Shown in pieces: positions 587 through 11,448 of a stretch of 64,000 nucleotides of DNA. The stretch's first letter is position 1, and every line of letters begins with the position of its first letter. The translations under genes and the position numbers were made by a program. Source of the stretch: an uncultured Pelagibacteraceae bacterium (GTDB lineage: Bacteria; Pseudomonadota; Alphaproteobacteria; Pelagibacterales; Pelagibacteraceae); NCBI GenBank assembly GCA_902611845.1, contig CACMAX010000002.1:124001-188000 (forward strand), written 5' to 3'. The notes under the pieces are model-generated. The model was not told where the DNA came from and searched no databases. It saw only the letters and a program-made list of their open reading frames with translations.

Positions 587-1918
587 TTATTTGCCTATGC
601 AAAAATCATTGAAAATTGATCCTAATACCTCTTCAACATCAACTTTACCAACTATCATTCCAAGATATCTTACAGCCAATCTTAAATCTTCTGCTCCTTT
701 ATCGAAATCTTGAAGAGATTTTTTTTTTTGAAAATTTTTTAAATGCTCAACACAATTTTTAAGATTAGATCTATGTCTTTCTCTTGTAATGTAAATATCT
801 TCGGATGAGATAAATTTATTTTTTAAATTTGCTTTAATCAGATTAATCAGTTGATCTAAATTTTTTTCTTTCTTTACGGATATAAATAATGGGTTATATT
901 TTTCGATTTCATTGCTAATTTCACTAACACCTAAATCTGATTTATTTACCACTAAAATTGACTTCTTTATTGCAGATTCATCAAAAAAGTCTTTAAAATC
1001 AATACTTTTAGGCTCTAGTACAATTATATTTAAATCAGCATTTTCGGCCTTGTTTAAAGCTAATTTAATTCCTTTTTTTTCTATTTCATTTTTTGAAACT
1101 CTTATTCCAGCAGTGTCTGATAAAATAACTGGGAAGCCGTCTAAATTTAGATGAGCCTCGATCACATCTCTTGTAGTTCCAGCAATTTCTGAAACAATTG
1201 CAATATCTCTTCTTGATAAATAATTTAAGAGTGAAGACTTGCCAGCATTAGTTGGACCAATAATTGCAATTTTAAAACCTTCTCTAATTCTTTCTCCTAC
1301 TCTTTGGTCATTTAATATTTTTTCAATTTCATTTCTAATACTAAAAGTTTCAGTATGAATATTTTTTAAAATGTCATTAGGTAAATCATCTTCAGGAAAA
1401 TCAATTTTTGCTTCAACATTAGATAAAATTTTTATCAATCTTGATCTTAAAGAATTAAATTTTTCTGAACTTTTTCCAGACATGATTTTGATAGCTTGCT
1501 GTCTTTGAATTTCTGTTTCAGATGATATTAAGTCAGAAACACTCTCCGCTTTCAAAAGATTTATTTTGCCGTTTTGAAAAGCTATCTTTGTAAATTCGCC
1601 TGGATCTGCTAATCTACAGCCATCTATTTTTGAGATTGTAGCTTGGATAGAATCTACAACTGCTTTACTGCCGTGAACATGAAATTCAGCCATATCCTCA
1701 CCAGTGTAACTGTTTGGGCCAGGAAACCATATTAATATTCCCTCATCAATAAGCTCATTATTGTTGATTTTGTTGAATTTTCTTAGTGTTGCAACCCTTG
1801 GCTCTGGTGCTTCTTTTTGGGTTAAATTAATAATAACATCCCTTGTTTTTGAGCCAGAAACTCTTATCACAGAAATTCCAGCAATACCTGGTCCAGAGGA
1901 TAGAGCATATATTGTCAT
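587..1918 (-). CDS. mnmE: MnmE (TrmE), tRNA modification GTPase
   Basis: This is a 443-residue protein, the usual length for MnmE. The N-terminal folate-binding domain (about 1-115) is followed by a helical domain and an inserted G domain. The G domain has Walker A GPTNAGKS (221-228), TTRD (248-251), DTAG (268-271) and an NKSD specificity motif near 326. The protein ends in CIGK (440-443), the invariant C-terminal cysteine motif of the family. It acts with MnmG in the next gene downstream to modify U34 of tRNA. It sits in the mnmE-mnmG order that often flanks the origin in alphaproteobacteria. Forty-six bases separate its start from the divergent sulfotransferase. Confidence 0.97.
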   Translation of the reverse strand: MTIYALSSGPGIAGISVIRVSGSKTRDVIINLTQKEAPEPRVATLRKFNKINNNELIDEGILIWFPGPNSYTGEDMAEFHVHGSKAVVDSIQATISKIDGCRLADPGEFTKIAFQNGKINLLKAESVSDLISSETEIQRQQAIKIMSGKSSEKFNSLRSRLIKILSNVEAKIDFPEDDLPNDILKNIHTETFSIRNEIEKILNDQRVGERIREGFKIAIIGPTNAGKSSLLNYLSRRDIAIVSEIAGTTRDVIEAHLNLDGFPVILSDTAGIRVSKNEIEKKGIKLALNKAENADLNIIVLEPKSIDFKDFFDESAIKKSILVVNKSDLGVSEISNEIEKYNPLFISVKKEKNLDQLINLIKANLKNKFISSEDIYITRERHRSNLKNCVEHLKNFQKKKSLQDFDKGAEDLRLAVRYLGMIVGKVDVEEVLGSIFNDFCIGK

Positions 1919-4572: not shown

Positions 4573-5565
4573 TTATATATTTTTTTCAATCAAATTTTTT
4601 AACAAAAGTATATGATCGTCGCTGTCATTTAAGCAAGGCACCATATCAAAATTTTCTCCACCAGACTCTATAAAGCTCTCTTTGCCTTGTATAAGTATTT
4701 CTTCTAACGTTTCTACACAATCAGAAGAAAACCCAGGACATATAGTCAGCACATTTTTTTTTCCTAATTTTGGGAGCTCTTCTAAAGTTTTATCTGTGTA
4801 GGGTTGTAACCATTCCTGTGGTCCAAACCTTGACTGGAATGTTGTTTTGATTTCAATTGAGTTTAGTTTCTCTGTAATTAGCCTTGTCGTTTTGTGACAA
4901 TAACAATGGTATGGATCACCTTTATCAAAATATTTTTTTGGAATTCCATGATATGAGGCCAATATTAAATCTGGTTTCCAATCAATCTCACTAATTTTTT
5001 TATTTATAGATTTTACCAATGCCTCTATGTACAAAGGATTGGATTCATAGTGTGGTATTATTTGTAAGGAAGGTTGCCACCTCATGTTCATGAGTGTTCT
5101 ATAAACCTCATCACAAACTGTGGCTGTAGTGGCCGCAGCATATTGAGGGTATAGAGGTAAGATTACTAAATTCTCACATCCTTCCGAATGTAGTTTTTTT
5201 ATTTTACTTTTAATACTTGGATTTCCATATCTCATCGCAAAATCTATAATTAAATTCTCATTTTTTAGATAGTTAGAAGTCTTTTCCATTTGTTTTTGTG
5301 TATAATAAAGTAACGGAGACATATTTTTATCTTTCATCCAAATTTCTTTATATGCTTTAGCTGTTTTAGAAGGTCTAAACGTAAGAATGAAGAGATTAAG
5401 AATTATTTGCCAAATAATTGGGTTTACTTCGATTACTCTCCTGTCAGATAAAAATTCTTTTAAATATTTTCTTATATCTAACCAATTGGTAGAATCGGGA
5501 GTTCCTAGGTTGATCAATAACACTCCAGTTTTTCCAAATTTTATTGGTGGGTGTTCTTGTTTCAT
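4573..5565 (-). CDS. hemH: Ferrochelatase
   Basis: The 330-residue protein matches ferrochelatase in length and motifs: GVLLINLGTP near residues 14-23, the catalytic histidine in LASYHGIPKKY, and the acidic metal-site segment FSSDCVETLEEI near the C-terminus. It inserts Fe2+ into protoporphyrin IX as the last step of protohaem synthesis. Its start overlaps the hemE stop by 4 bases, so the two are translationally coupled, and hemJ follows. A short Cys/His-rich stretch (HCYCHKT) lies in the middle; whether it binds iron or a cluster cannot be judged here. Confidence 0.97.
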   Translation of the reverse strand: MKQEHPPIKFGKTGVLLINLGTPDSTNWLDIRKYLKEFLSDRRVIEVNPIIWQIILNLFILTFRPSKTAKAYKEIWMKDKNMSPLLYYTQKQMEKTSNYLKNENLIIDFAMRYGNPSIKSKIKKLHSEGCENLVILPLYPQYAAATTATVCDEVYRTLMNMRWQPSLQIIPHYESNPLYIEALVKSINKKISEIDWKPDLILASYHGIPKKYFDKGDPYHCYCHKTTRLITEKLNSIEIKTTFQSRFGPQEWLQPYTDKTLEELPKLGKKNVLTICPGFSSDCVETLEEILIQGKESFIESGGENFDMVPCLNDSDDHILLLKNLIEKNI

Positions 5566-6563
5566 TTGTAATTTCTCACTGTTTCTACAAGTTCATATAC
5601 CATCTCTACTTCGGTTTCAGGCAGAATGCCATGACCCAAGTTGAAAACATAAGGATGGTCTTTAAATATATTCAGATACCTCCTAATTTGTTTTTTTAAG
5701 TTTTCTTTATCAGACAAGAGGATTTTGGGATCCAAACCTCCCTGAACTGGCACATCTAAAGATTTAATTAAAATTTCAGGATCTACGTTATAATCAATAT
5801 TTATCATACTAGGGTTAACAATTTTAGTGAATTTAACATAATCAGTGATGCCTCTTGGAAAACATATAACGGGTACACCTAAATTTTTTACATGGTTTAC
5901 TAGAGATAAAGTTGGATTGTATAAAAACTTATCAAAGTCATTTTGTATTAAACCAGCCCAGCTATCAAATATTTGAATTATTGTAGCGCCAGCTTTTATT
6001 TGGTTTTCAATATGTATCTTAATAAATTTATCCAACAAATTTAAAATTTCATTAATTATAACTTCGTCCTTAAAAAATTTTTTAGATAGGCCGTTCTTAG
6101 GAGAAACTTTGTTAACCATGTATACTAAAAGCGTCCATGGGGCACCTACAAAACCAATTAAATCCTTGTTTTTGAGGTCATTAGTATTTTTAAGATTAGA
6201 CAACAATTTGTATACAGGGGATAATCTTTCTGTCAGATCTTTCTTACTTACACTCGCGAGTTTATTTAATTCAAGAGCTCCTAAACTTGGACCAAAATTT
6301 TTTTTAAACTCGACTGTCTGACCCATACCATGTGGTATCATTAATATATCTGAGAATATTATTGCAGCATCGAAGCCAAATCTTTTTATTGGCTGTAATG
6401 TTATCTCTTCAGCTAAAGTATGATTTAAACATAACTTTATAAAGTCTGGATTCGCTTTTCTAATTTGTTTGAATTCTGGCAAATATCTACCAGCTTGTCT
6501 CATTAGCCATACTGGATTAGTTTTAGTACTTTTGTTAATTAAACATTCTCTTATTGGTGTCAT
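5562..6563 (-). CDS. hemE: Uroporphyrinogen decarboxylase
   Basis: The 333-residue protein shows the UroD signature WLMRQAGRYLPEF at about residues 19-31, the FSDIL segment near residue 70, and GLDPKILL and NLGHGILPETEVE near the C-terminus. It decarboxylates uroporphyrinogen III to coproporphyrinogen III in the cytoplasm. It is the first gene of the leftward hemE-hemH-hemJ-rho group. Its upstream side faces the non-coding gap at 6564-6844, as hemE does at the Caulobacter origin. No coproporphyrinogen oxidase gene is seen in the window, so that step must be encoded elsewhere. Confidence 0.97.
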   Translation of the reverse strand: MTPIRECLINKSTKTNPVWLMRQAGRYLPEFKQIRKANPDFIKLCLNHTLAEEITLQPIKRFGFDAAIIFSDILMIPHGMGQTVEFKKNFGPSLGALELNKLASVSKKDLTERLSPVYKLLSNLKNTNDLKNKDLIGFVGAPWTLLVYMVNKVSPKNGLSKKFFKDEVIINEILNLLDKFIKIHIENQIKAGATIIQIFDSWAGLIQNDFDKFLYNPTLSLVNHVKNLGVPVICFPRGITDYVKFTKIVNPSMINIDYNVDPEILIKSLDVPVQGGLDPKILLSDKENLKKQIRRYLNIFKDHPYVFNLGHGILPETEVEMVYELVETVRNYK

Positions 6564-6844
6564 TTATATTAAGATAATTATATTTAGTTTTATTATTAGT
6601 ATGTATTGTTGATAACGTAAATTACTCAATTTCAACACTTTATTAACTTTTTTTACATTCTATTGCTTAAAAAACCCTTTAAAAAGCTGTCTATTTAGTT
6701 ATTTTACAAAATTTTAAAATTGTTAATAAGTTATTCACACTAATTTTAAATGTTAATTAAATGAGTAAAAAAAATGTTTCTTTTAGAATTTAACCAAATG
6801 AAAGTTATTTCTTAATTTTAAGTTAATTTATAAACAATTTATAC
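6564..6844. other. oriC: Probable chromosomal replication origin (oriC) between hemE and ppsR
   Basis: This 281-base gap holds no credible gene. It is the largest intergenic region in the window and is extremely AT-rich. It contains one exact match to the DnaA-box form TTATNCACA (TTATTCACA, 6731-6739). It also has one-mismatch 9-mers at 6607-6615 and 6721-6729 (both read on the minus strand) and at 6828-6836 (plus strand). Genes diverge from it, leftward on one side and rightward on the other. The flanking order hemE | DUF299-maf-aroE-coaE-dnaQ-secB is that of the Caulobacter origin, and Rickettsia shares part of it. The divergent promoters of hemE and ppsR must also lie here. Origin function is inferred. 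Confidence 0.75.
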
Positions 6845-7666
6845 ATGAAAAATACACACCAAATATTCTTAATCTCCGATTCAACGGGTGAAACATTAGA
6901 CAGAATTTTTATGGCTTTAAAAGCACAATTTAACAACTTTAATTACGAACTTAATCAATTTTCTTTTACAAGAACGGAGAGCCAAATATCAACCATTCTT
7001 AAAAAAGCAAAAGAACAAGACAGCCCTATCATACTATATACCGTTGTTAACAGTAAGCTTGCAAAGTTTTTAGCTGAAGAAGCAAACAGAATTAATATAC
7101 CATGTTTTGGCGTCTTAGGAGATTTAATTTTAAATTTTTCAAAAATTTTAAATCAAAAAGCAACTCATAAACCTAGTGGTCAACATGTTCTAGACGAAGA
7201 ATACTATAAAAGAATTGAAGCAATTCAATTTACAATGAACCATGATGATGGCAATCAAACAGGAAATATACTTGAGTCAGATATTATATTAATTGGTGTT
7301 AGTAGAACTAGTAAAACACCAACATCTATTTATTTGGCTAATAAAGGTCTAAAAACTGCTAATATTCCGTTAGTAAATGAAATGCAAATACCCAAAGATG
7401 TGACTGAGTCAAATAATCTGTGTGTTGTTGGTTTAGTAACGGAAGCGGAGAGACTATTTGATATTCGACGTAATAGATTAAATTCTTTAAAAGAACAAGA
7501 TGCATCTGATTACACAGACTTAGAAAAAATTAAAATCGAAGTAGAACAATCGAAAAAAATCTTTAAAAAAAATAAATGGCCCACGATAGATGTAACAAGA
7601 AAATCAGTTGAAGAAACCGCTGCTTCGATTATCAAGATATATGAAATAAAAAATAAAAATGCATAA
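6845..7666 (+). CDS. ppsR: PpsR-type kinase/pyrophosphorylase (DUF299), regulator of PEP synthase or pyruvate,phosphate dikinase
   Basis: The 273-residue protein begins with the family motif ISDSTGET (10-17) and has a P-loop GVSRTSKT (151-158). Both are diagnostic of the bifunctional ADP-dependent kinase/Pi-dependent pyrophosphorylase family formerly called DUF299. Known members switch PEP synthase or pyruvate,phosphate dikinase off and on by phosphorylating an active-site threonine. Which target exists here cannot be seen in the window. In many alphaproteobacteria this is the first gene to the right of the origin. It overlaps maf by 8 bases and heads a rightward run of core genes. Confidence 0.9.
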   Translation: MKNTHQIFLISDSTGETLDRIFMALKAQFNNFNYELNQFSFTRTESQISTILKKAKEQDSPIILYTVVNSKLAKFLAEEANRINIPCFGVLGDLILNFSKILNQKATHKPSGQHVLDEEYYKRIEAIQFTMNHDDGNQTGNILESDIILIGVSRTSKTPTSIYLANKGLKTANIPLVNEMQIPKDVTESNNLCVVGLVTEAERLFDIRRNRLNSLKEQDASDYTDLEKIKIEVEQSKKIFKKNKWPTIDVTRKSVEETAASIIKIYEIKNKNA

Positions 7667-8240
7667 ATTGATTTTGGCGTCAAAAAGTAATGTAAGATAT
7701 GAAATTTTGGTAAAATATAATATTGACTGTAAGGTAGAACATTCAAATGTTGATGAAGAACCAGTAAAACAAAGTTTATTAAATGAAGGTGCAACCCCGG
7801 AAAGTATATCAAAAAATTTAGCTGAATTGAAAGCAAACAAAGTAAGCCAAAGATTACTAGATCAATTAGTTTTGGGAGCTGACAGTGTAATAGACTTAAA
7901 TGGTGAATTAATTTCTAAACCAGAAGATAGAAAGCAAGCATTCAATATTTTGAAAAAATTAAATGGAAAAATACATCATTTAATAAGTTCTGTATGCATT
8001 TCTAAAAATGGTTCAATGATATGGAATTATACTGACAAAGCAACTTTAACGATGAAAGAATTTAGTGATGGTGATTTAAAAGAATATTTAAACAAAATAT
8101 CAGATGAAGCTTTGTACTCTTATAATGTCTATCAAATAGAAGGTGAAGGAAGACATCTATTTTCTAAAATCGATGGAGATCAAAATACTATTATGGGCCT
8201 TCCTGTTGATCAAATTAAACAATATATCGAAAGTTTATAA
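7659..8240 (+). CDS. maf: Maf/YceF-family nucleotide pyrophosphatase
   Basis: The 193-residue protein has the Maf N-terminal motif LILASKSNVRYEIL (residues 4-17). The conserved GADSVIDLNGELISKPED segment in its middle supplies catalytic acids, and a late NIMGLPVDQI-like segment (here NTIMGLPV) lies near the C-terminus. Maf proteins hydrolyse non-canonical or modified nucleoside triphosphates to monophosphates in the cytoplasm. It is tightly packed, overlapping ppsR by 8 bases and sharing its last base with the aroE start. It sits in the conserved origin-proximal order ppsR-maf-aroE. Confidence 0.92.
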   Translation: MHKLILASKSNVRYEILVKYNIDCKVEHSNVDEEPVKQSLLNEGATPESISKNLAELKANKVSQRLLDQLVLGADSVIDLNGELISKPEDRKQAFNILKKLNGKIHHLISSVCISKNGSMIWNYTDKATLTMKEFSDGDLKEYLNKISDEALYSYNVYQIEGEGRHLFSKIDGDQNTIMGLPVDQIKQYIESL

Positions 8241-9034
8241 TGAAAAAATATTTGGTTGTTGGAAATCCTGTTGAACATTCATTATCACCAAAACTACATA
8301 ATTATTGGTTGAGCACTAATAAAATTGAAGCAATTTATGGGAAATTACAGGCATATGATAGTGATTTGAAAGAGTTGTGCAGCAATATTAAAAATGGTCA
8401 GATAAACGGGCTTAATATTACAGTTCCTTTCAAAAAAAAAATTATCCCTCATTTAGATGTACTAAGCGGTCATGCATTAAGGACTCAATCTGTGAATACG
8501 GTTTGTCTAAAAAATGGAAATGTTACTGGTTATAATACCGATATAGATGGATTTGAGCTTAGTCTCGAGAAGTTGGCTTATGATGTTAGTAATAAGAACG
8601 TAATGATTTTGGGAGCAGGGGGAGTCGTGCCTTCAATTATATATGCCTTAAAAAAATTGAATGTTAAACAAATTTATTTAAGTAATAGAACTAAAGAGAA
8701 GGCACAGATTTTAAAAAAATTATTTGATGGAATAGAAGTTATAGATTGGGGAATGCTTCCTGATTTTGATTTGATTATTAATGCTACTAGTCTTGGATTA
8801 AAGGAAAACGATAAATTTGAAATTGATTTTTTAAAAGCTGGGAATAATAAACTGTTTTTTGATGTTATATATAATCCATTTAACACTGATTTTTCTAAAG
8901 CTGGAAATAAACCAGGAAATACAATTGAAAATGGTTTAAATATGTTTCTATTTCAAGCCCAAAAAGCATTTAGTATATGGCATAATATTGAACCAAAGAT
9001 TGATCAAAAAGTGATAAAATTTTTAGAAAGTTAA
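8240..9034 (+). CDS. aroE: Shikimate dehydrogenase
   Basis: The 264-residue protein shows the substrate-binding motif GNPVEHSLSPKLHN (8-21), the catalytic lysine K65 in NITVPFKKK, Asp101 in YNTDIDG, and the NADP-binding loop GAGGVV (125-130). It reduces 3-dehydroshikimate to shikimate with NADPH in the common aromatic amino acid pathway. The start codon overlaps the maf stop by one base (TAATG). In other alphaproteobacteria coaE follows directly; here an SDR gene is placed between them. Confidence 0.96.
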   Translation: MKKYLVVGNPVEHSLSPKLHNYWLSTNKIEAIYGKLQAYDSDLKELCSNIKNGQINGLNITVPFKKKIIPHLDVLSGHALRTQSVNTVCLKNGNVTGYNTDIDGFELSLEKLAYDVSNKNVMILGAGGVVPSIIYALKKLNVKQIYLSNRTKEKAQILKKLFDGIEVIDWGMLPDFDLIINATSLGLKENDKFEIDFLKAGNNKLFFDVIYNPFNTDFSKAGNKPGNTIENGLNMFLFQAQKAFSIWHNIEPKIDQKVIKFLES

Positions 9035-9039
9035 TTTTT

Positions 9040-9780
9040 GTGAGACTTAATAATAAAATTGCAATAATAACAGGGTCAGCATCTGGTTTTGGTAAAGGAA
9101 TAGCAAAAAAGTTTACTGAAGAAGGTGCTAATTTAATATTAGTTGATATAAATTTAAAATTATTAAAGGAAGTTTCTAAGAATTTATCTCAAGACTACTT
9201 TGTTGCTGATGTATCTAAAGCATCAAATTTTAATTCTCTACTAAAATATGCTTATAAGAAGTACAATTCCGTGGATATATTTGTGAATAATGCCGGCATT
9301 ACACATAAACCAAAACCCATGGAAACTGTAACGGAAAAAGAATTTGATAAGGTATTTAATGTAAATGCAAAGTCAGTCTACTACTGCGGAAAATATTTTG
9401 TGCCAAAAATGAAAAAAATAAAAAGAGGAGTTATCCTAAATGTTGCATCAACTGCAGGACTATCCCCTCGACCAAAACTTAATTGGTATAATGCAAGCAA
9501 AGGATGGATGATAACTGCTACCAAAGCCATGGCCATTGAACTTGCTCCATACAAAGTAAGGGTAAATGCTATCGCACCAGTTGCAGGACAAACACCTTTA
9601 TTGAAATCATTTATGGGAGGGTATACTTTAAAAAAAAAACAAGCGTTTTTGTCCACCATTCCATTTGGACGTTTTTCTACTCCAGAAGATATGGGAAATG
9701 CAGCATGTTTCTTATGTTCAGATGAGGCCAGCATGATTACCGGGTCGATATTAGAAGTTGATGGAGGAAGGTGTATTTAA
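9040..9780 (+). CDS. Short-chain dehydrogenase/reductase
   Basis: The 246-residue classical SDR starts at GTG 9040, five bases after the aroE stop. It carries TGSASGFGKG (11-20) for the cofactor, NNAG in strand 4, and the catalytic serine and YNASK tetrad (YxxxK) in the second half. It ends with the VDGG sequence usual for 3-oxoacyl-reductase-like SDRs. An Asp at the end of strand 2 (LILVDIN) suggests NAD rather than NADP preference. Substrate is unknown. Its place between aroE and coaE interrupts an order that is contiguous in related bacteria. Confidence 0.88.
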   Translation: MRLNNKIAIITGSASGFGKGIAKKFTEEGANLILVDINLKLLKEVSKNLSQDYFVADVSKASNFNSLLKYAYKKYNSVDIFVNNAGITHKPKPMETVTEKEFDKVFNVNAKSVYYCGKYFVPKMKKIKRGVILNVASTAGLSPRPKLNWYNASKGWMITATKAMAIELAPYKVRVNAIAPVAGQTPLLKSFMGGYTLKKKQAFLSTIPFGRFSTPEDMGNAACFLCSDEASMITGSILEVDGGRCI

Positions 9781-9796
9781 ACAAGTAAAAATTTTT

Positions 9797-10384
9797 ATGA
9801 TCAGAGTCTGCATGTTAGGAAGTATTGGTTCAGGAAAAACTTTCATATCTAAGTTATTCAAATATCCAGTTTTTAATGCCGATAAAGAAGTAAATAGTGT
9901 TTATAAAAATAATAGAGTTTGTTTTAAAAGATTAAAAAAAAAATTACCGAAATATATTAAATCGTTTCCAATATTAAAATCGGAGCTGATTTTAGCGATT
10001 AACGAAAATAAAAAAAACTTAAAAGTTATTACTTCTATAGTGCATCCAATAATAAGAAAAAAAATGAAAAAATTTGTTAATGATAATAAAAATTTTAGAA
10101 TGGTAGTCTTAGATGTACCATTACTAATTGAAAATAAATTGAATTTGAAAAGCGATATTTTAATTTTTATAAATTCAAAAAGAAATAAAATCTACAGTAG
10201 GTTGAAAAAAAGAAGAAATTTTGACCATAATCTTATTAAAAGCTTAAGCACAAAACAGACAATGCTGTCTAAAAAAAAGAAAATAGCGGATTACATAATC
10301 GATAATAATTTTTCTCCTAATATAATGAAAAAAAAAGTAAAACTATTAAAGAAAAAAATATTAAATGAAAGAAGTAGTACTTGA
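9797..10384 (+). CDS. coaE: Dephospho-CoA kinase
   Basis: I start this gene at ATG 9797 (195 residues), because the protein motifs begin there; the frame is open further upstream but only inside the preceding SDR. The N-terminus has a P-loop of the form GSIGSGKT, followed by FNADKEV, the DAD-like CoA-binding motif, and later VLDVPLLIE. It phosphorylates the 3'-hydroxyl of dephospho-CoA, the last step of coenzyme A synthesis. It is markedly lysine-rich. It overlaps dnaQ by 20 bases, and the coaE-dnaQ pairing is standard next to alphaproteobacterial origins. Confidence 0.92.
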   Translation: MIRVCMLGSIGSGKTFISKLFKYPVFNADKEVNSVYKNNRVCFKRLKKKLPKYIKSFPILKSELILAINENKKNLKVITSIVHPIIRKKMKKFVNDNKNFRMVVLDVPLLIENKLNLKSDILIFINSKRNKIYSRLKKRRNFDHNLIKSLSTKQTMLSKKKKIADYIIDNNFSPNIMKKKVKLLKKKILNERSST

Positions 10385-11033
10385 TACGGAAACGACTGGA
10401 TTATCTGTTAGTGATGGTCATCGAATTGTTGAAATCGGTTGCATAGAACTTGATAATTTAATTCCAACTAACAATTTTTTTCATTGTTATTTAAATCCCC
10501 AGAGAAAGGTTTCAGAAACCGCTCTTAAAGTACATGGTTATACAGATAAATTTTTATCAGACAAAAAAAAATTTAAAGATGTTGTGGATGATTTCTTAAG
10601 TTTTATTGATGGAAAAAAAATAGTAATTCATAATGCAGAGTTCGATATCGGCCATTTAAACAATGAATTGTCTTTAATTAATAAAAATAAAATATCAAAA
10701 GATAACGTTATTGATACTCTGGAAATTGCAAGAAATAAGTTTCCAGGATCTGGTATTAGTTTAGATGCATTATGTAAAAGATTTAGAATTGATAATTCAA
10801 AAAGACAAAATCATACAGCGCTATTAGATTGTGAGTTACTTTCTAAAGTTTATATAAATTTATTAGATCAAAAAGAACCTATATTTCAATTTAACAACAC
10901 TAAAGATGAAAAAGAACAAAGTAAAACTGAGATATTAAGCTATTCAAAAAAAATTATAAATATTACAAAAGAAGAGATGGCAAAACATAAGGAATTTTTA
11001 AAAAAAGAATTTAAAAGAAATTTTTTTAATTAA
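10365..11033 (+). CDS. dnaQ: DNA polymerase III epsilon subunit (3'-5' exonuclease)
   Basis: The 222-residue protein is a DEDDh exonuclease. VLDTETTGLS at residues 5-14 holds D7 and E9, IVEIGCIELDN follows, VIHNAEFDIGHLN supplies the third acid, and HTALLDCELL gives the catalytic His and last Asp. It is the proofreading subunit of the replicative polymerase. The start lies inside the 3' end of coaE. It converges on secB with an 8-base overlap, so the two transcripts share their ends. Confidence 0.94.
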   Translation: MKEVVLDTETTGLSVSDGHRIVEIGCIELDNLIPTNNFFHCYLNPQRKVSETALKVHGYTDKFLSDKKKFKDVVDDFLSFIDGKKIVIHNAEFDIGHLNNELSLINKNKISKDNVIDTLEIARNKFPGSGISLDALCKRFRIDNSKRQNHTALLDCELLSKVYINLLDQKEPIFQFNNTKDEKEQSKTEILSYSKKIINITKEEMAKHKEFLKKEFKRNFFN

Positions 11034-11448
11034 GCCTTTGCTGATATAATTTTTCAAAATCTACATTTTTTTCTAACTTTAATTCAGGAAAACCTGATGC
11101 TTTTATAACATTTAAAAATATTTTTTCTATACCAGGATAAACTTCATTTTGAACGTCGCATAAGATCATTTTTTCTAAATCTTTTTTCTCTAAATTTTTG
11201 TCAATAATTTTTATTACAGTCCCATATGATAGTTCAAAGTAAGACTTTTTTTGATTGTCTTTTGGATCTTTATAGTTAACCTTAGTTATTACCTCAACCA
11301 TCTCATTTTTTATTTGATTTGAAGTAATGTTAATTCCTAGAGAGTAATTTGTTATATTTTCTCTGCTAAATATAAATGTTTCAGCATCTGGTATTTCAAC
11401 TGAAAGATCTTTTATATATTTTAATACTATTTCATATTTTTTTGTCAT
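11026..11448 (-). CDS. secB: Protein-export chaperone SecB
   Basis: The 140-residue protein has the SecB length and core features. The first strand carries LKYIKDLSVEIPDAETF near residues 9-25, and the central antiparallel sheet contains a YFELSYGTVIKI region. SecB tetramers keep preproteins unfolded and pass them to SecA. It lies opposite dnaQ as in the Caulobacter origin region, where secB follows dnaQ. It overlaps the upstream fxsA-like gene by 17 bases, so the two are co-transcribed leftward. Confidence 0.88.
   Translation of the reverse strand: MTKKYEIVLKYIKDLSVEIPDAETFIFSRENITNYSLGINITSNQIKNEMVEVITKVNYKDPKDNQKKSYFELSYGTVIKIIDKNLEKKDLEKMILCDVQNEVYPGIEKIFLNVIKASGFPELKLEKNVDFEKLYQQRLN

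Follow-up and report, generated by a model that had tools for sequence, protein, structure and literature searches.

The stretch of DNA considered here, called the window, is a 64-kb segment (G000:C2:124001-188000) of a Pelagibacteraceae assembly that comprises 1.258 Mb in 26 contigs and is 92% complete. The closest DUF299 among named records, from uncultured Pelagibacteraceae, is 97% identical to that of the window. Near its left end lies a gap of 281 bp between two genes that point away from each other. The initial annotation had singled out this gap as gene-free and AT-rich, with leftward genes on one side and rightward genes on the other, and so it is: hemE lies on the minus strand, DUF299 on the plus strand, Pfam agrees with both assignments, and the GC content of the gap is 16.4%. 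Each kilobase across the window has a GC fraction of 0.217-0.394, so the AT content of the gap exceeds that of its surroundings. The gap and the genes near it are as follows.

587..1918, minus strand: mnmE (NF003661 over cut-off), start of a run mnmE-gidA-gidB-parA-parB that extends left of the window, the left neighbours being named by eye from the ORF list
5562..6563, minus strand: hemE, uroporphyrinogen decarboxylase, flanking gene (PF01208, URO-D; TIGR01464 over cut-off)
6564..6844, no strand: proposed oriC, the AT-rich divergent intergenic gap hemE|DUF299 (281 bp, GC 0.164)
6845..7666, plus strand: DUF299, PPDK/PEP synthase regulator, flanking gene (PF03618, Kinase-PPPase; NF003742 over cut-off)
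7659..8240, plus strand: maf (PF02545)
8240..9034, plus strand: aroE (PF08501)
9758..10384, plus strand: coaE (PF01121)
10365..11033, plus strand: dnaQ (TIGR01406 over cut-off)
11026..11448, minus strand: secB (PF02556)

The initial annotation gave hemE | DUF299-maf-aroE-coaE-dnaQ-secB as the order at the Caulobacter origin, shared in part by Rickettsia. The plus-strand genes here do follow one another in that way, but secB is on the minus strand, and an additional ORF (9040-9780 of the window), by eye similar to short-chain dehydrogenases, interrupts the order between aroE and coaE.

The arrangement around the gap is widely shared. DUF299 was found in 34 of 41 genomes of the genus, and in all 30 genus loci that were fetched hemE is adjacent and divergent, across gaps of 261-285 bp with 13-20% GC. 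The pair recurs in 44 of 46 further loci, the two exceptions (G041 and G047) making up a second genus, g2. In all, 74 of 76 Pelagibacteraceae loci have the divergent pair, with gaps of 255-286 bp; the 76 loci represent 75 genomes, as G055 was entered twice (the identical L104 and L130). A separate collection of 80 loci from named Pelagibacteraceae records, which may overlap the main set, gave 77 full gaps of 254-288 bp once three cut or partial ones were dropped.

In some lineages, a neighbor of the gap has changed. In a second family of the order (f2), DUF299 had no match in 15 of 15 genomes among those listed; besides these, it went unmatched in five genomes of the window's own genus and in three more genomes beyond those listed. 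hemE is present in 14 of the 15 f2 genomes, where it faces maf (confirmed by tblastn in all 14 loci) across 271-281 bp in 13 of the 14, the remaining gap (L140) measuring 207 bp owing to an upstream start codon chosen by the script. In g2, it is hemE that has gone: DUF299 faces rho, 82% identical to the rho of the window by tblastn, across 353 bp containing three TTATNNACA boxes. The best hemE match in the two g2 genomes lies about half a chromosome away (G041:C1:718118-719050 and G047:C1:412399-413331) and is only 30-31% identical, which suggests loss and replacement. At one other locus (L226, G158:C1:358206-359185), hemE beside the origin gap is split between two matches that overlap, and one of them contains five in-frame stops; this is either a broken or frame-shifted gene or a sequencing error. 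A gap that outlasts either of its neighbors is not what one would expect of a mere promoter region of that neighbor.

Within the gap of the window, the pattern TTATNNACA and its degenerate forms mark the following elements, to which we add a run of trinucleotides discussed below.

6591..6602, plus strand: DnaA-trio-like run TAT TAT TAG TAT, proposed unwinding site, 4 bp 5' of the box at 6607-6615 (rule and geometry from PMC8287927)
6607..6615, minus strand: DnaA box TTATCAACA, which fits TTATNNACA and is better conserved than any other box, a full TTATNNACA lying no more than 4 bp from the aligned place in 22 of 30 genus gaps
6640..6648, plus strand: degenerate box-like sequence TTATTAACT; only 3 of 30 genus gaps have a full box close to this place in the alignment
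6721..6729, minus strand: DnaA box TTATTAACA, inverted neighbor of the box at 6731; aligned full box in 6 of 30
6731..6739, plus strand: DnaA box TTATTCACA, exact; aligned full box in 11 of 30
6751..6759, minus strand: degenerate box TAATTAACA; relatives have a full TTATNNACA there in 13 of 30
6828..6836, plus strand: DnaA box TTATAAACA, fits TTATNNACA, beside DUF299; aligned full box in 19 of 30

Pattern matching thus recovers the four boxes that had been named previously (beginning at 6607, 6721, 6731 and 6828). Their clustering in the gap is significantly beyond chance: four TTATNNACA matches compare with a mean of 0.27 expected, a number that none of 2000 dinucleotide shuffles reached. Of the 26 contigs, C2 (217 kb) was scanned for clusters over 208 kb of its length; the gap ranks first there in TTATNNACA matches, and no other cluster has more than two within 281 bp. 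In the complete genome G012, the corresponding gap ties for the top cluster in 880 kb sampled and stands alone at the top with the pattern TTATNMACA; two converging ORFs end at the tied site (1,324,394-1,324,465), which has one box within an ORF and two that overlap. A search for TTATTCACA with no more than one mismatch, by contrast with the cluster, shows no enrichment across the 64-kb window (34 matches against 46.6 expected), and two further exact copies lie at 9282 and 28951, so the window-wide count was dropped as proof of an origin. The evidence consists in the clustering and conservation of boxes rather than in the exact box.

Conservation was judged in two ways. By number, 30 genus gaps hold 97 TTATNNACA matches against 10.9 in shuffles (maximum 22 of 300), and 29 dereplicated gaps hold 78 against 9.9 ± 3.0 (maximum 20 of 1000). 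Decoy words caution against taking such comparisons at face value: three of six beat every shuffle (23 against a maximum of 21, 21 against 20, and 25 against 23), hence shared ancestry inflates the counts and, where rows are related, shuffling is too lenient a control. The decoys, however, reach 1.9 to 2.7 times the shuffle mean, the TTATNNACA box 8.9 times. By position, the columns of the box cores have a pairwise identity of 0.736 against 0.543 elsewhere in the gap, the rows being related and the p-value therefore indicative only; around the degenerate TTATTAACT site, local identity is 0.71 over 6636-6644 and 0.67 over 6645-6653 in the 30 aligned genus gaps. The expectation that the boxes would be conserved in relatives thus holds for the two outer ones, at 6607-6615 and 6828-6836, and fails for the pair that the initial annotation had highlighted: with aligned full boxes in 6 and 11 of 30 gaps, the boxes at 6721 and 6731 are mostly lineage-specific. 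Nor is the presence of boxes universal. One gap (L124) has no TTATNNACA box, and the box is missing from 9 of 14 f2 gaps (including the shortened L140) and present in 5, which counts against simple conservation of boxes.

The trinucleotide run, which the initial annotation did not mention, lies immediately 5' of the hemE-proximal box. The published rule for BUS (DnaA box plus DnaA-trios) calls for a DnaA box with three or more 3'-NAN-5' trios in the 5' extension of its strand, within 16 bp of it (PMC8287927). The window has this arrangement, with TAT TAT TAG TAT at 6591-6602, on the same strand as the box at 6607 and separated from it by a 4-bp spacer, although in AT-rich DNA the rule alone is permissive. 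It departs from the published design in that only one of the four trios has the TAG consensus, the one nearest the box being TAT; TAG-rich versions are found in relatives, with clean repeats (TAGTAGTAGTAG) in two f2 gaps (L136 and L145).

A stronger sign than the trio rule is the strand asymmetry of TAG. In the first 45 bp beside hemE, the 29 dereplicated gaps have 60 TAG and one CTA on the plus strand, a difference of 59 where shuffles of the whole gap give a mean of 4.7 and a maximum of 19; in the rest of the gap, the two are balanced. The same 45 bp hold 147 TAG and 6 CTA in 74 gaps, and 147 and 8 in the 77 gaps from named records, where TAG exceeds CTA in 76 (these genomes may overlap the other set). 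When shuffling is confined to those 45 bp, the excess is modest (60 TAG against 50.0 ± 4.1, maximum 63). Over 35 gaps (the 29 plus six from f2 and g2), the commonest TAG-TAG spacings are 3, 6, 9 and 12 (10, 8, 7 and 7 pairs), followed by 10 with six pairs. In 8 of the 14 f2 gaps, among them L140 with its shortened gap, the first 45 bp have one TAG or none, and in g2 they have none, a trio-like TTATTAGG there adjoining the box at 128. In sequence, the run fits the published DnaA-trio/BUS design for opening an origin.

A strict string, TTAGTAT N4-7 TGTNNATAA, was tried as a universal probe for trio plus box and dropped as unspecific: it has 64 matches, in 46 of 114 genus genomes, and its reversed control about 50, so only the place of a match is telling. 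By comparison of coordinates (one genome could not be placed), 35 of the 64 fall within the gap. The window's own genome has a single match, at the gap, and none for the reversed control; G051 has no match. Separately, TTAGTATTAGATGGTGTTGATAA recurs unchanged away from the origin in 14 of 114 genus genomes (e.g., G177:C10:21084-21106), possibly within genes.

The position of the gap in the chromosome was considered from GC skew, parS-like sites and dnaA. Cumulative skew, which had been proposed as a check, agrees with the gap to about 30-90 kb but does not pinpoint it, and with so broad a trough it was dropped as a means of doing so. On contig C2, the minimum is at C2:179971 (about 56 kb in the window), 49 kb from the gap. 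In G012, the trough (about 1.2225-1.3175 Mb) contains the gap (1.262 Mb), with the minimum at 1,290,841 in the 181 kb read through and a coarse symmetric fit favoring points 73-91 kb from the gap. Twenty samples each place the minimum at about 170 kb in G041 (gap at 141 kb) and about 290 kb in G051 (gap at 336 kb). Across three complete genomes, the minimum lies 28 to 50 kb from the gap and the maximum in the opposite half.

In three of four genomes, sites resembling the parS consensus lie 7-20 kb from the gap. In the window's genome, C2:122580 (one mismatch) and C2:122912 (two) are the sole sites with no more than two mismatches in 208 kb; they are 7.7-8.0 kb from the gap and adjoin ORFs that by eye resemble parA, parB, gidB and gidA. 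Sampling turned up a single site in each of the other genomes: 7.3 kb from the gap in G012; about 20 kb away in G041, an exact match lying towards DUF299 and not towards rho; and about 128 kb away in G051, with two mismatches. The gene dnaA is about 63 kb from the gap in both G000 and G012.

Could the gap be something else? Both hemE and DUF299 need promoters, and in Caulobacter, for which a DnaA regulon is named (PMC3973325), DnaA doubles as a transcription factor, so the boxes might serve only to regulate the divergent genes, with the origin lying elsewhere. Three weak promoter-like matches do occur in 6500-6900, but 3.4 are expected by chance. A region that served only these promoters would hardly stay close to its usual length in f2, where DUF299 is not found, or retain its boxes in g2, where hemE is no longer adjacent, and the strand-specific trio run and the parS-like sites near the gap in three of four genomes also speak against it. 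We regard it as very unlikely. Less probable still is an origin at some other intergenic site of the same 50-100 kb region, such as the contig's skew minimum at window position ~56 kb: the breadth of the trough in G012 gives it room, but the scan of C2 met no rival to the gap's cluster of boxes.

The explanation nearest to negligible is that composition alone yields box-like matches. The DNA is indeed very AT-rich and the boxes are AT-rich words, the single-box pattern shows no enrichment across the window, and half of the decoys exceed their shuffles. Yet dinucleotide-preserving shuffles yield 8- to 9-fold fewer boxes, decoys reach at most 2.7-fold, and the box cores are more conserved than the spacers. 

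By far the best reading is that of the initial annotation, in which replication of this SAR11 chromosome starts from the gap (oriC). It is supported by the synteny and length of the gap, the enrichment of boxes together with their conserved positions, the trio element, the persistence of the gap and the nearby parS-like sites, and we would put its probability at roughly 0.93.

As a candidate origin, the gap has the marks of the alphaproteobacterial hemE type: a place beside hemE and/or COG1806 (DUF299), a cluster of boxes above chance, and AT content. On these sequence features, its membership in that already known class is well supported. The origin of Caulobacter crescentus (Cori) is likewise AT-rich, with several DnaA boxes between hemE and COG1806/DUF299, and the predicted origins of Rickettsia and Wolbachia are small AT-rich gaps with DnaA boxes and hemE at the border; Rickettsia retains the hemE/COG1806 pair, as here, whereas in Wolbachia the other neighbor is COG1253 (PMC1914354). 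In SAR11, the changed neighbors are different ones, maf in f2 and the combination rho|DUF299 in g2. The origin of strain HTCC1062 was marked before, as oriC is said to have been "manually identified", its place given only in a figure (PMC4033161). In the literature listed on Pelagibacter/SAR11 origins, cell cycle and chromosome replication, no title or abstract opening reports an origin for SAR11. New here are the map of boxes, the trio run and the changes of neighbor.

At Cori, CtrA has five sites and IHF one, and the predicted Wolbachia origin has sites for both proteins as well (PMC1914354); in the window's genome, by contrast, no CtrA was recognized among the matches listed and the IHF pattern is not enriched. 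The protein classification for CtrA covers this genome alone of 14: at 92% completeness it has four OmpR-family proteins, one of them PhoB over cut-off, and the best CtrA score among the matches listed is 129 against a 350-bit cut-off, from a model named for Rhodobacterales. The CtrA-type pattern TTAA-N7-TTAA occurs twice in the window's gap and 16 times in 29 gaps, a marginal excess over 7.8 ± 2.9 (maximum 17 of 500). From this sequence evidence, control of the origin by CtrA looks unlikely. The IHF pattern applied here, WATCAN4TTR, differs from the published WATCAN5WTR (PMC1914354); it is absent from the window's gap and occurs 6 times in 29 gaps against 5.1 expected.

An origin marked by methylation sites (GANTC/CcrM) was ruled out, GANTC not being enriched in the 29 gaps (1 against 4.0 expected). 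SAR11 is reported to have a CcrM homolog (PMC3973325), an N6/N4 methylase (PF01555) is found in 14 of 14 genomes, and GcrA (PF07750) in 13 of 14, the G000 protein scoring 101.7, below the NCBIfam GcrA cut-off of 280. An RNA element was also rejected: the only two matches (E 0.49 and 0.65) fall within DUF299 and score far short of the gathering thresholds.

Two further observations concern regulatory proteins. An OmpR-type DNA-binding protein of 187 aa, in which Pfam finds no receiver domain, is encoded 18 kb from the proposed origin, left of the window (L008, G000:C2:112351-112932), and in 12 of 12 f1 genomes searched PF00486 has a match at a distance of 17-28 kb from DUF299, a likeness by position only. 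As for DnaA, PF00308 has one strong match in each of 14 genomes and a weak second match in 4 of them, in frames of 219-356 aa. By these PF00308 matches, a weak test, none of the 14 has a clear Hda homologue, so the inactivation of DnaA may differ.

With no recognizable CtrA in the window's genome and IHF sites unenriched, DnaA itself is probably the main controller of the proposed origin. Bound at 6607-6615 and at partner boxes, it would load onto the plus strand of the trios (about 6591-6602), pulling the duplex open on the hemE side. Helicase would then enter the opened DNA and two forks depart, one through hemE-rho-mnmE-par and the other through DUF299-maf-dnaQ, while the more distant boxes at 6721-6759 and 6828-6836 may concentrate DnaA or tune timing. 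Loss of either neighboring gene leaves the gap in place, and this suggests an origin anchored by its own sequence. We lean slightly towards the full proposal, that SAR11 has a compact hemE-type oriC of ~280 bp, probably CtrA-free, opened via a conserved DnaA-trio/BUS module on the hemE side and anchored in this way.

Few cell types in the sea are as abundant as SAR11, and origin-to-terminus read depth is used to estimate its replication in situ. An origin defined at the level of bases across the family would anchor such estimates. It would also provide a precise DNA target for asking how a streamlined bacterium, apparently without CtrA, times its replication.
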